Positions 1 through 30,459 of a DNA stretch of 30,459 nucleotides are shown one piece after another. How positions within the stretch are numbered: position 1 is the first letter of the stretch; each line of letters starts with the position of its first letter. Origin of the DNA: a virus; IMG/VR virus record IMGVR_UViG_3300013307_000041, positions 1 to 30,459 of that record. One strand, written 5' to 3'. The notes under the pieces are model-generated. The model did no database searches. It was not told the origin of the DNA and saw only the letters and a program-made list of their open reading frames with translations. The position numbers and the translations under genes were made by a program.

Positions 1-1265
1 CCAGCGGGCGCTAACGCGATGTTGGTCAGGGTGTCCTCCGGGTCGCCACGGCCAGCGGCAATGGAGCCAGGAACGGCACGAGCCGCCGGGGCTGCGATCC
101 ACTTCTGGATCCCGTCGGCGACGCGGGTCAATACGCTGGCGGCCTCCGGGCTGGCACGTTCAGCCAGGCCCATAAGCTCGGTCGCTGCTTTCGCCTTACC
201 TGCGGACGGCAACGGCGCGAGAAGGTCCCCGATAAGGGTCCCGACCTGCGCGTATTTGTCGGTAGGAGGTTCGAAGCCGGGGATCGTACCCGGCGGGATG
301 TTCGGCGCGCGGGTGTTCTGATCGACGAGGCCGATCGACTTGCCCGCGTCCGTGGCCGCGTTGGAGACCATATTGACCAGCGAGATCGGCGTGTTGAGGA
401 GGTCGACCCCAGTCTGGACAATACCGCGCCCGGCCTGCTCAAACGAGCGGCCTACGCCTCGCCAGTTTTCGGCGGTTTGTTCTTCTGGGCTGAGTGCTCC
501 AGAGGTTTGTCCGGCTTGATCAACTCCGCCCGGCTCTCCGTTACCGTTCGGCGCTGCCGCCCCTCGTGCGCCATCAGGTCCCGCTTGATTAGGTGCATTG
601 CCAGCGGCGAGGGCTGCGACTTGCTGATCTGCCCCTCCGGCTCCGGCGGCTCCTGCATCTGCTCCAGCTCCGGGGGCAAATTCCCCGAACTGGTCGAATA
701 CATTACCAGACTGAGACGCGCCGCCAGCTCTGGCACTGGTTGCACGTTGCACAGGTTCATCGCTACCGCCAGCCCCTCGGCCAGTCCACTCATTAAACCG
801 TTGATCCACATATTGACGCCCCTCCGGGCCGGGTTGTGCCTGGCCCGCTAGTTGTTTGTCTACGTTGCCGGGGCCGTCGTGGTAAGCCTGGAGCGCGAGG
901 CCCCAGTCTCCGTAACGCTGGTACATCTGGGAAAGGTACTGCGCCCCTGCGTCAGCCTGGAGCGAAGGGTCGCGCTGTAGCGCGTCCCAGTCGTAACCCA
1001 TATCCTGAGCCGTACCTTTCATGACCTGCGTGATCCCATGAGCGCCTTTACTGGAAACGGCAGAAGCCGGATCAGAATGGCCGCCCGTCTCCTTACTCGC
1101 CAGCGCCGTCATGATGCCAGCGGGCAGTCCCCAACGCTCCCCAGCACTCTCCAGGAGATCAGCATATCCGCCGCCCGTGGATCCTGCTTGAGTAGGAATC
1201 TGATTCGGGAGCGCCTGCGCACTTTTCGGCATATTCTGCTCAAACTGATCGAATACGTTCGCCAC
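1..1265 (-). CDS. Virion transglycosylase / DNA ejection protein (P22 gp16 analogue), partial
   Basis: The C-terminal part lies beyond the left edge; about 421 residues are visible. Residues about 35-165 form a soluble lytic transglycosylase (SLT) domain. The likely catalytic Glu59 sits in ALASKETGG, followed by the SSKGAHGITQVM core and a downstream AYHDGPGNV segment. Such domains cut peptidoglycan locally so that ejected proteins can cross the cell wall. A Gly/Ala-rich linker (about 165-255) follows, then a region that may insert in membranes. The six-residue motif NVFDQF occurs twice, at residues 3-8 and 188-193. The start is GTG at 1265, directly after the stop of the upstream gene and 8 bases past a GGAGG site; no ATG alternative has a comparable site. 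It is last in the ejection order gp7-gp20-gp16, as in P22. The enzymatic domain is well supported; the gp16 role is inferred from gene order. Confidence 0.85.
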   Translation of the reverse strand, partial: MANVFDQFEQNMPKSAQALPNQIPTQAGSTGGGYADLLESAGERWGLPAGIMTALASKETGGHSDPASAVSSKGAHGITQVMKGTAQDMGYDWDALQRDPSLQADAGAQYLSQMYQRYGDWGLALQAYHDGPGNVDKQLAGQAQPGPEGRQYVDQRFNEWTGRGAGGSDEPVQRATSARAGGASQSGNVFDQFGEFAPGAGADAGAAGAGGADQQVAALAAGNAPNQAGPDGARGAAAPNGNGEPGGVDQAGQTSGALSPEEQTAENWRGVGRSFEQAGRGIVQTGVDLLNTPISLVNMVSNAATDAGKSIGLVDQNTRAPNIPPGTIPGFEPPTDKYAQVGTLIGDLLAPLPSAGKAKAATELMGLAERASPEAASVLTRVADGIQKWIAAPAARAVPGSIAAGRGDPEDTLTNIALAPA

Positions 1266-4207: not shown

Positions 4208-5665
4208 TTAACTGAGTCGAATACGTGCGCGCGAGAGCGTGGCCGGGGTTGCGCCAACGGTGCGGATTTTGAACGCAACGGCAGTACGGCAGCGGCCCAT
4301 CTTTTTCAGGACGACGCGCTTAAGCCACTGCTGCGGCGTGTTGTAGTCGATCAGGATCTCCTGGCCGAATACGCTCCCGTCCTCCGTGCCGCTGATCCAC
4401 ATCCGGCTCGTTACGCTGTCGCCGCCTACGCTGGCGTCGATCTCGAAATCGCTCATCATCATTCCGGCGAACGGCATCAACGGCGTATAGAGGACAATCT
4501 CCTGATCCTCGCCATACTGCGCACAGGAGGCCATATCGAACTCGCCAAGCACGGCCAGACGCTTGTCGCCTACCGTGACGCGGTTCCCCTCGTTGCAGTA
4601 GTCGATCGCGCGGTGCTGGCCGCTCGCGTTCTGTACGCCCGTTTTAATAATCGACCATACCGGGAGGCCCTGCGCCTGGCTAACGGGATGATCGTAGACG
4701 AGCGTCTGGTCCGGTAGGTGGACAATAAGCAATTTATGGCTTTCAAAGCTCACGGACTCCAGTCGGGTGTTTTGCAGTTGCGCCACGGTGTACCCGGCGA
4801 GGATCTTCTTAATCTGGACCGATGCCAGATCAGACCAGGAGCCGCCGCCGGGGTTCATCATGGCGATCGTAAATTCGCCCACAAACGGCGACGTAAGGAA
4901 TGCGAAGCTGTCGAGGTACTGGCACACCGTTTCACGGCCCAGCGTCCCGGCTTCGACCGTATAGGACGGCTGGCTGGCGTAAACGTTCTCCGCGTCCCCG
5001 GTCAGGCCGAAGAACTCGATCGAGGCGGTCCCGAAGCACAGCACGTAATCACGCCACGAGCGGATCGCCACGATGCCGTCCGGCATGGACTCCGCCCGAT
5101 AGAACGGAGCGATCTTGTCCGGGTGGCTCTCGTCCTCCAGAGATGAGATCCAGAAGGTGTCCGAGTTTTTCACGCTGAAAATGTAGCGCTGGCGCAGGTG
5201 GCAGACGTCGTTAATGTCGCCCCAGGTGAATTGAGGGTTGTCGACGTTCGTCCCGCTGTCGCGCGGCCAGTTGCTAAACGTCTTGCGGGTCCCGTCGTAG
5301 CGGTAGAGTAAGAGCTGGTTTTGCGAGACGACGCCCTGAGAGTCGCGGCTATGCGCCATCGGGGTGCGGTCCTCGCCGGACACGTCGCCGATAGGGTTGC
5401 CGTTGGTGTACAGCTTGCCACCCATCACGCGATAAGCCGAGCTGGAGACCGTATTCCACTCCACGCCGCGCGAGAGGCCCGCCACGTCCGCGACCTTCTT
5501 AAGGCCGGGCATCATGCGCATGTAGCCGTTGCCGCCCTTAATGGCGCGGGCAATCGCCAGCATGTTCTCCGGTAAGCGGGTGATCCAGTCGAAGTTATTA
5601 CGGCTGCGACCGTCACCAAAAACAAGGGGCAGATTCACGACCTGCCCGCGTTGTGCGTAAGCCAT
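4208..5665 (-). CDS. Packaged DNA stabilization / tail hub protein, P22 gp10-like
   Basis: 485 residues (P22 gp10 has 472). gp10 forms a hexameric hub below gp4 and closes the portal channel. Many segments match gp10 as I recall it: SRGVEWNT (gp10 SRGVEYNT), YRVMGGKLY, RYDGTRKTFSNWPRDSG (gp10 RYDGTVKTVSNWPADSG), LEDESHPD, YRAESMPDGI, SWRDYVLCFG, and a C-terminal LKKMGRCR and TLSRARIRLS. This is the clearest P22 homologue in the window. The ATG at 5665 follows AAGGGGG. It lies between the gp4-like and needle genes, in P22 order. Confidence 0.93.
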   Translation of the reverse strand: MAYAQRGQVVNLPLVFGDGRSRNNFDWITRLPENMLAIARAIKGGNGYMRMMPGLKKVADVAGLSRGVEWNTVSSSAYRVMGGKLYTNGNPIGDVSGEDRTPMAHSRDSQGVVSQNQLLLYRYDGTRKTFSNWPRDSGTNVDNPQFTWGDINDVCHLRQRYIFSVKNSDTFWISSLEDESHPDKIAPFYRAESMPDGIVAIRSWRDYVLCFGTASIEFFGLTGDAENVYASQPSYTVEAGTLGRETVCQYLDSFAFLTSPFVGEFTIAMMNPGGGSWSDLASVQIKKILAGYTVAQLQNTRLESVSFESHKLLIVHLPDQTLVYDHPVSQAQGLPVWSIIKTGVQNASGQHRAIDYCNEGNRVTVGDKRLAVLGEFDMASCAQYGEDQEIVLYTPLMPFAGMMMSDFEIDASVGGDSVTSRMWISGTEDGSVFGQEILIDYNTPQQWLKRVVLKKMGRCRTAVAFKIRTVGATPATLSRARIRLS

Positions 5666-28534: not shown

Positions 28535-29272
28535 CTAGCGGAAATTTTCGGCGAATACTGCGAGGGCGAAGCCCTCCGGGGTGGCGCTGCGGATGTTCTT
28601 CGTTCGGGTCGACTTCCCCCCAGCCTTGGCCCAGCCGGGATTATCCTTCACCGCCGGGACGGGCTTCGTCTGCGGCATGATGAAACCGCCACCGCACCAG
28701 ATCCCGGTCCCTTTCGGATAGGCATCGCGCGCCGGGTATATCTGCGGATAGAGGCGGTGCTGGTGATCCTCCGGCAGATAGCCGCCGTAATAGTACGGGT
28801 GAAACCATTCATCACAGGGACGCCACAGCCTGGAGAGCGCGGAGTGCTTTGGGTTCTCCAGCATCCACGGGATCGTCGATACTGGCTCAAAGTTCCCATT
28901 CTCCACGCTGCAAAAGCCGGAGACGTGCTTAACCATTTTTGCCAGCGCCACGGCCTTTTCCTGAAAGCGCGGGTCCTTCTCGGCTTTCGCTTTCCACCAG
29001 CGAGCGCCAGCGCAAGTAAGCTCGGTACACTCGGCAAAGGATGCGATAAAGATAACGCCTGGCCCGACCTCCTCGGCGATGCGCGACGCCTCCCTGATCG
29101 TGTCGTCAGCGTCAAACATCCGGCCAACGCGTACCAGGTTCGGCTCCTCCGGGTCACGATGGATCCCCGGCTCGTGCTGACCGTCGTACATCCAGCACTC
29201 GACGCCAGCCTTAAGCCACGGATCAACCATGATCCGCGTAAGGTTGAATAAGAAAATCGCCTTACGCTTCAT
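28535..29272 (-). CDS. C5-cytosine methyltransferase-like phage protein
   Basis: 245 residues. The pattern matches phage proteins of the DNA cytosine methyltransferase type. An N-terminal motif-I-like segment (FLFNLTRIMVDPWLKAG) leads to a cysteine loop AECTELTCAGARWW, in the place of the usual PPCT...SGARWF. VENGNFEPVSTIPWMLENPKHS follows (ENP), and the end is GTGIWCGGGFIMP and NIRSATPEGFALAVF. The usual Pro before the catalytic Cys is replaced by Glu, and motif I lacks its glycines, so activity is uncertain. It may methylate or otherwise modify phage DNA, or be a degenerate copy. The ATG at 29272 has GAGG upstream and follows the clamp-like gene directly. Confidence 0.62.
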   Translation of the reverse strand: MKRKAIFLFNLTRIMVDPWLKAGVECWMYDGQHEPGIHRDPEEPNLVRVGRMFDADDTIREASRIAEEVGPGVIFIASFAECTELTCAGARWWKAKAEKDPRFQEKAVALAKMVKHVSGFCSVENGNFEPVSTIPWMLENPKHSALSRLWRPCDEWFHPYYYGGYLPEDHQHRLYPQIYPARDAYPKGTGIWCGGGFIMPQTKPVPAVKDNPGWAKAGGKSTRTKNIRSATPEGFALAVFAENFR

Positions 29273-29273
29273 G

Positions 29274-29867
29274 TTACGGCCTCGCAGGCATGATGATCAT
29301 GGTTGCCGGGCCGCACGGGGTTTCAAACTCAACCCGGATCGGCTGGTCTTTTCCTGCGAGGTGGAGATCGATAAACGGCAGTTTCGCGCCGAACTTTTTC
29401 CCCAGTTTCTCGATCAGGCCCAGATATTGAGAGGCCACCTTGACCTCCGTCGTTGCCTTGGCGTTAGCCTTAGCGCCATCGATCACGCGCTTAAGGTCGG
29501 GATATCGGGAGTCCACGACGTCCACAGTACCCACAGCCAGGCGACACTTGCGAAACCAGCCGTCCGGCAGTTGATCCAGGTCCTTCACCTTGTCGGCGAG
29601 CTGGGGAGTCCAGTACACGATCCCGGCTTTCGTATCAATGACCGCCGTCGAGTAAGCGCGACCGCTGGGGGGAGTGGAGATTTTCAGGATCACGCCATCC
29701 TCCGGCGCGTTAACGATGGCGTGGACGCTGGAGAGGCCGACGTGGCCGTTAGTGGTCTGGATCTCGCTGCCTTTAAAGTGGTAGGCATTCAGGTAGTAAC
29801 GAACATCATTAACGGCCTGGGTCAGCGCATGGGCGCGCAGTGCTTCTACGGGTGCATAAATAATCAT
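29274..29867 (-). CDS. DNA sliding-clamp-like protein (DnaN C-terminal type)
   Basis: 197 residues. The C-terminal half resembles the last domain of bacterial DNA polymerase III beta. SRYPDLKRVIDG fits the F/Y-P-D-Y-x-R-V pattern, VASQYLGLIEKL fits the clamp helix, and PIRVEFETPCGPATMIIMPARP ends like beta (E. coli ends YVVMPMRL). The length is about half of a full clamp (366), so it could be a shorter clamp with more subunits or a clamp mimic. Clamps tether polymerases and repair proteins to DNA. The ATG at 29867 has GGAGAG upstream. It sits between two methyltransferase genes. This is a recognition from short motifs and should be treated as moderate. Confidence 0.5.
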   Translation of the reverse strand: MIIYAPVEALRAHALTQAVNDVRYYLNAYHFKGSEIQTTNGHVGLSSVHAIVNAPEDGVILKISTPPSGRAYSTAVIDTKAGIVYWTPQLADKVKDLDQLPDGWFRKCRLAVGTVDVVDSRYPDLKRVIDGAKANAKATTEVKVASQYLGLIEKLGKKFGAKLPFIDLHLAGKDQPIRVEFETPCGPATMIIMPARP

Positions 29868-29880
29868 CTCTGGTCTCTCC

Positions 29881-30459
29881 TTAAATCAGGCTCTTGCCTG
29901 CGTACATCATTTCGGTAAGCGTGATGTATTCCGTTTTCACATCGCCACGCTTGCGCGGCTTGATCAGGAACAACACGGACGACTTAGGATTTTTGTTGCC
30001 TGCCTTTTTGGTAATCGGATCTACGTAAGCAACGCGCCCGGACGTTTCGCCGTCACTGGTCATAATCACCAGATCGGAAGAGTGATCGAGAGCCAGCTTA
30101 AACCAGGCCGTAGACGGATCGCAGTTGACGAGGAGCACGGTAGATACGCCGCGCTTCTTGGCCTGCTCGATGGCCTTGCGCACAAACGGCATCGGTTCAG
30201 AGTATGGCGGGTTACACCACGCCATACCGTTCTCCGCGCCCCAGTCGACGCCATCACGGAGCGCATCGGTCTCCTCGTCCAGGTAGCAGGCACAGAGGGC
30301 GTTAACCTTCTCGGCGGCCACGTCGATCCCAAACTAGCCGAAGCGTTTGCGCGCCCAGTCAAAAAGCCACTTTGGCGTCTGCCATTTCTGGCGCACATTG
30401 TCCGGCGTCTTGCTGCCTTTGAAACGGCGACCGCTCACGCGATCCTCATTTAGCGCGTC
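29881..30459 (-). pseudogene. Dam-type DNA N6-adenine methyltransferase, interrupted by an in-frame TAG and cut by the right edge
   Basis: Reading right to left, the frame is open from the window edge: FKGSKTPDNVRQKWQTPKWL, then FDWARKRFG, then TAG (30336-30334), then FGIDVAAEKVNALCACYL, WCNPPYSEP (catalytic NPPY), TVLLVNCDPSTAWF and GRVAYVDP. Both sides match the phage Dam family (W-x-TP-x-W-L-F at the N-terminus, D-A/V-A-A-x2-x-N-A then NPPY), in the same frame. The protein is therefore whole except for one stop codon. The only start after the stop is a GTG at 30321 with no ribosome site and without the N-terminal part. It may be an inactivated gene, an amber read-through gene, or a single-base sequence error. 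Confidence 0.75.

Follow-up and report, generated by a model that had tools for sequence, protein, structure and literature searches.

The window that we analysed, a virus record of 30,459 bases, encodes on its minus strand a 197-residue protein that, judged from sequence profiles and a predicted structure, is a diverged homologue of the beta sliding clamp of bacteria (DnaN). In this protein and its relatives, here called mini-clamps, the peptide-binding pocket of the clamp is conserved and the canonical ring interface is absent. We favor the possibility, to which we give a probability of about one in two, that the mini-clamp is a ringless phage derivative of DnaN that binds the clamp-binding motifs of host replication proteins and competes with the host clamp or redirects its traffic.

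The mini-clamp gene and its surroundings

The gene occupies 29274..29867 on the minus strand (ATG start, residue 1 at 29867, stop codon included), and immediately upstream of the ATG is a purine-rich stretch, AAGGAGAG, that resembles a ribosome-binding site. As the initial annotation had it, this 197-residue frame lies between two methyltransferase genes, both flanks being methyltransferases by PHROG or Pfam. Directly upstream, across 13 bp, is an ORF for a Dam-type adenine methyltransferase (29881..30321, minus strand; Pfam PF05869, E=1.2e-31); directly downstream, after 1 bp, comes the second methyltransferase ORF (28535..29272, minus strand), which is called Dcm in relatives, matches PHROG_757 with E=4.1e-63 and gave zero families at E<=5 in a Pfam search. 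The Dam-type frame is broken by a TAG at 30334-30336, where relatives have A, Q or P; the possible causes are a nonsense mutation, an error in assembly and recoding of the stop.

Genes for portal, coat, scaffold and ejection proteins and for head closure were recognised in the window, and this structural set fits a podovirus of the Sortsne kind. Among the matches listed, the closest annotated relative of the window protein is that of Escherichia phage Sortsne (77.6% identity), a phage whose isolation host was E. coli K-12 MG1655 and in which the gene order is primase, dUTPase, Dam, mini-clamp and then a gene called Dcm. The window's counterparts of the Sortsne replication genes would lie past its end. 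Elsewhere in the window, a 552-aa ORF at 20331-21989 matches PHROG_2850 (unknown function) and, more weakly, primase-helicase families.

Relationship to DnaN and spread of the family

The resemblance to a clamp that had been noticed in the sequence is backed by profile searches, by the predicted fold and by alignment at the level of single residues. When the window protein was used alone in a single-sequence search, matches to beta clamps were weak (E about 1.2), and its sole Pfam match, DUF2969 (E=0.22), misses the cut-off and was taken as chance. A profile built from 17 relatives matched E. coli beta (1jqj) with E=1.3e-19, in two pieces: the first runs from beta 137 across domain II and the second covers 315-365. 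With a profile of 37 mini-clamps, hhalign returned E. coli beta at a probability of 98.9% (E 1.6e-17). Individually, 31 of the 37 members of the family alignment matched the NCBIfam dnaN model (TIGR00663) at E<=0.1, the best at 6.1e-10; the window protein is outside those 31.

It had also been supposed that phages rarely carry DnaN-like clamps, which the spread of this family does not bear out: with a threshold of E<=0.01, tblastn matched the window protein to at least 213 of the 50,697 phage records. Among plasmids, 9 of 72,556 records matched at E<=0.1, and a prophage relative used as a DNA query was found in 59 of 5,426 complete E. coli genomes. Relatives in IMG/VR were gathered with the pattern D[VIA]RYYL[NM][GA], which fixes part of the pocket; 80 loci were found in this way, 50 of which entered the polymerase and DnaN domain searches and 36 the main fold alignment.

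Purifying selection indicates that the protein is functional. For the window gene compared with two close relatives dN/dS was 0.20-0.22, and the range over 13 chosen pairs of mini-clamps, some with near-saturated dS, was 0.06-0.28; on these values we ruled out a pseudogene.

Parts of the clamp that are kept and parts that are missing

Mini-clamps are 170-224 aa long, compared with about 366 for the three-domain DnaN. In an alignment of 30 non-redundant mini-clamps (those remaining of 49 once sequences at least 80% identical had been removed) with 8 hand-chosen full-length clamps, the former fill only beta ~134-254 and ~314-366, and neither domain I nor the first half of domain III (beta ~255-313) is present. 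What the two families have in common, in sequence and in predicted fold, is domain II and the second half of domain III. In the window protein the counterpart of domain II comprises residues ~1-129 (29481..29867, minus strand), which contain NDVRYYLN, TTNGH and SRYPDLKRV, align with beta ~134-254 and are modelled as strands and a helix. Residues ~140-197 (29277..29450, minus strand), which end in IIMPARP and align with beta ~314-366, correspond to the second half of domain III. The initial description of a half-length clamp was thus right as to size, but the kept parts are domain II and half of domain III rather than the last domain alone, and the ring-forming parts are gone. Similarly, of the two motifs that had been assigned to the last domain, the C-terminal part ending in IIMPAR does belong there, but SRYPDLKRV is the equivalent of DGRFPDYRRV (238-247), with which beta domain II ends.

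Seven dimer-interface residues and 18 pocket residues of beta are catalogued in a review (PMC11139829). Going by that list, none of the seven interface positions (I78, R103, F106, I272, L273, E298 and E304) is occupied in any of the 30 mini-clamps, and we consider that the missing interface argues against an ordinary DNA-encircling clamp. The DnaN model matched 37 of 50 mini-bearing virus records, always under the cut-off, within model positions 115-328 and in open frames of 179-208 codons, and a full DnaN over the cut-off was found in 0 of the 50. Because the matches are confined to this part of the model and to mini-sized frames, no separate domain-I gene was detected in the 50 records.

Predicted structure

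AlphaFold2 monomer models were made for the window protein (pLDDT 87.5, pTM 0.79) and for a 178-aa relative from locus L046 (pLDDT 92.7, pTM 0.88), and both were predicted to adopt the clamp fold. In VIA-align comparisons all 50 matches listed for each model were bacterial-type clamps or complexes thereof; both models matched 7evp_A, a chain of 377 residues that we take, from its DnaN-like length, to be the clamp chain of that entry. For the window model Z reached 9.6 (166 residues, 3.0 Å). In a fold search PCNA chains appeared weakly (E about 0.07 or more). The L046 model had Z of 12.7-14.2 among the matches listed, and 14.0 against E. coli beta (8vam_G; 165 residues, 3.0 Å, 31% identity, beta 126..366). 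Since these 165 residues are spread over 126..366, a large part of beta must be skipped in the structural alignment, just as in that of the sequences; in our interpretation, the C-terminal half of the L046 model packs on domain II much as in a real clamp. Matches of the window model to E. coli beta stop at 309-312, not 366, so that the C-terminal half (helix 146-158; strands 167-169, 177-183 and 186-192) falls on the first half of domain III instead. Pocket geometry, which we judged from the alignment ranges of the models, is consequently better supported in L046 than in the window protein.

Two full clamp domains have four core helices. Each mini-clamp model has two of clamp type (7-14 and 146-158 in the window protein; 7-16 and 126-139 in L046), and neither is predicted to have a core helix in the second half of domain II, where DnaN keeps one. 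The relative in Burkholderia phage BcepC6B (L107, about 4990-5594), when read by eye, seemingly has kept the domain II helix; it has neither the half-domain that the others are missing nor the terminal MPMR, and its open frame extends upstream of the annotated start.

The peptide-binding pocket

All 18 pocket positions listed in PMC11139829 are aligned in the mini-clamps, and over the 30 sequences their mean identity to E. coli beta is 0.74, compared with 0.22 at the other aligned positions. When the comparison was limited to positions conserved among the full-length clamps, the values were 0.85 for pocket (n=14) and 0.45 for non-pocket positions (n=18), with p=5e-4 on the assumption, common to our pocket p-values, that positions are independent. 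As the pattern by which relatives were gathered fixes part of the pocket, we repeated the comparison with 15 mini-clamps that had not been found through it and obtained 0.82 against 0.40, or 0.79 against 0.35 when residues 150-157 were also dropped. In a 17-member alignment nine columns are invariant (the counterparts of R152, Y154, L155, G174, H175, P242, Y323, M362 and P363), eight of which are pocket positions, and the window protein has 12 of the 18 pocket residues exactly (R152, L155, T172, G174, H175, P242, R246, V247, Y323, M362, P363 and R365). The other six are changed (R176V, L177G, N320A, V344D, V360I and M364A), and the specificity of the window protein may differ for this reason.

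A proposed docking pocket without a ring

The explanation that we favor is that DnaN has been cut down to a pocket-bearing module made of domain II and the second half of domain III. The pocket would bind clamp-binding motifs (consensus QLxLF and variants) without encircling DNA, the likeliest partners being the host Pol III alpha subunit, the clamp-loader delta subunit, Hda and repair polymerases, and during infection the mini-clamp would compete with the host clamp or steer traffic off it. There is a published precedent for strong binding to a pocket that is not part of a ring: delta binds a monomeric variant of beta about 50 times more strongly than the dimer (PMC11139829). Against this reading, an indiscriminate decoy would harm a phage that relies on host Pol III.

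In support of this reading, domain searches for PolA, PolB and Pol III alpha found none in the 50 mini-bearing virus records, several of which are short records or prophages; a primase zinc ribbon was found in 21 of them. On the other side, polymerase-bearing relatives exist: in BcepC6B a DNA polymerase gene is beside the mini-clamp gene, and phage AH2 has a polymerase together with gp20 (209 aa; PMC3483164), which we count among the relatives solely from its label and length. In a broader version of the model, the clamp has become, in a phage family of wide distribution, a soluble pocket without a ring, which captures the clamp-binding motifs of host proteins and through which phages lacking a polymerase control which host replication or repair enzyme reaches the fork. 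We put this forward tentatively, as somewhat less probable than not.

The mini-clamp is a real, coherent variant of a known fold. A beta-subunit label is already present on scattered records, and in what we searched of the openly accessible literature we found no description of a truncated, pocket-only clamp. Sliding clamps are known as rings and, if our reading is true, a protein that has kept the pocket and discarded the ring would separate docking from encircling; it would also be a natural inhibitor of, or adaptor scaffold for, a recognised antibacterial target. There is some likeness to the staphylococcal phage protein Gp168, an inhibitor whose complex with the clamp is PDB 7EVP and which like the proposed mini-clamp is a phage protein that acts on clamp traffic but differs in that it binds the host clamp itself, whereas the mini-clamp resembles the clamp. 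Other phage-borne clamp homologues, for example gp28 of Burkholderia phage KL1 (386 aa) and gp63 of phiAxp-1 (346 aa), differ from the mini-clamps in being near full length and in having genes that adjoin a phage DNA polymerase gene (PMC3483164, PMC4764938). Two proteins searched with PADLOC gave zero matches to an anti-phage defence family.

Alternative explanations

It is possible, although in our estimation unlikely, that the mini-clamp is a ringless processivity or recruitment factor which contacts DNA itself, via loop II and a mildly basic body, and keeps host Pol III or the phage primase/helicase tethered to the phage DNA, in the way that herpesvirus UL42 serves its polymerase. Loop II residues are indeed invariant, with D150, R152 and Y154 found in 30/30 mini-clamps and Y153 in 29/30 (15/15 and 14/15 in those not found through the pattern), which makes a DNA-touching role possible. 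Loop II (148-154) and the cleft of the E. coli clamp contact DNA, and D150 and R152 are the residues of this loop that are required for viability (PMC5042465). However, R152 and L155 also belong to the pocket, so that the invariance of loop II also fits a peptide-only role, and of the other DNA-contacting residues, R197/K198 of the central pore are mostly lost and R24 of loop I is absent. Mini-clamps are often mildly basic, unlike DnaN (pI>7 in 19 of 30; median net charge +2, n=30, compared with -11 for E. coli beta), from which direct DNA binding can be argued, and in podoviruses the gene adjoins the replication module. Nevertheless, net charge varies between -5 and +11; basicity is therefore not shared across the family, and a strongly basic UL42-like body is unsupported as a family trait. 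Precedent for viral clamps that are not rings, UL42 among them, is reviewed in PMC9690074; UL42 is likewise clamp-like and works without a ring, but it has its own viral polymerase as partner and binds DNA via a positively charged helix.

We consider it improbable that the mini-clamp is a genuine sliding clamp whose ring is closed through some unrecognised interface, for example as a tetramer with three half-domains in each subunit. The predicted clamp fold of both models is in keeping with this idea, and four copies would, by our inference, supply twelve half-domains, the number in known rings. On the other hand, domain I and the half of domain III that carries the dimer interface are absent and, reasoning from clamp topology, we assume that no complementary edge strand is left in the mini-clamp. 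In subunit size it is like PCNA and T4 gp45, whose subunits each contain two whole domains and assemble as trimeric rings, whereas the mini-clamp consists of one degenerate domain and half of another and is nearer to DnaN in both sequence and fold.

There is still less in favor of the suggestion, made in the initial annotation, that the protein recruits the neighbouring DNA methyltransferases to new DNA, and as a general role we rejected it. Our reasoning was based on gene order and on motifs. A tight order of Dam, clamp and Dcm is characteristic of the podovirus group (with one small gene between in two loci), and of the 23 loci examined 14 have a Dam-type gene immediately upstream; however, all 14 belong to that group, and in the other lineages this was so in 0/9 loci, L014 having such a gene about 3 kb away. 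The methyltransferase neighbours are a local feature of one phage group. As to motifs, the Dam proteins of Sortsne, IME_EC2, KMB41 and the L022 phage have QAEM[MI]F in their tails, which is like a hexameric clamp-binding motif (genes at L003 19336-19986 and L004 19343-19984, and in L006 and L022), but the glutamine is missing from the Dam tails of the window (LTEMMY) and of L005, L007-L009, L019, L020, L023 and L024. More generally, when hand-listed ORF sets that included the clamp (34 from Sortsne, 32 from IME_EC2, 11 from C130_2 and 17 from the window) were searched for clamp-binding motifs, pentamer, hexamer and loose counts were no higher than in 200 shuffles in every set. This is a point against methyltransferase recruitment.

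Outside the podoviruses the neighbours are varied, which argues for an autonomous function. In phage Eta they are a ParB-like gene and a helicase gene, and in a Salmonella plasmid the mini-clamp gene is in an integrase region. In Shigella phage EP23 (L012 4977-5489) and Escherichia phage 26 (L015 4956-5477) it lies among late structural genes on the opposite strand, suggesting that it is transcribed on its own.

Finally, we give virtually no credence to a RusA-like Holliday junction resolvase, the name borne by PHROG_3007 (E=2.7e-38 over residues 1-197 of the window protein) and by many RefSeq records, and rejected it since the 37-member profile gave a probability of only 0.1% (E 0.45) with E. 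coli RusA in hhalign, against the 98.9% for E. coli beta, and 0/37 members matched the Pfam RusA family at E<=0.1. Apart from this label, neither the fold nor the profiles pointed to another family.

Labels in public records

Among the matches listed were 60 phage records. RusA-like Holliday junction resolvase is the label on 18 of them and beta clamp or Pol III beta subunit that on 14; the rest are called hypothetical, DNA polymerase (III) or Holliday junction resolvase, or have no annotation. The RusA-like label on PHROG_3007 and on RefSeq records such as NC_048178 and NC_016566 seems to be an annotation error that has been passed from record to record in a family derived from the clamp, and our reading would correct the two conflicting labels, Pol III beta subunit and RusA-like resolvase, that are found on many public phage records. 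A different kind of error probably affects the Campylobacter phage record MG065686, where the dnaN gene at 113831-114928 is 100% identical to that of E. coli K-12, most likely through contamination or misassembly.
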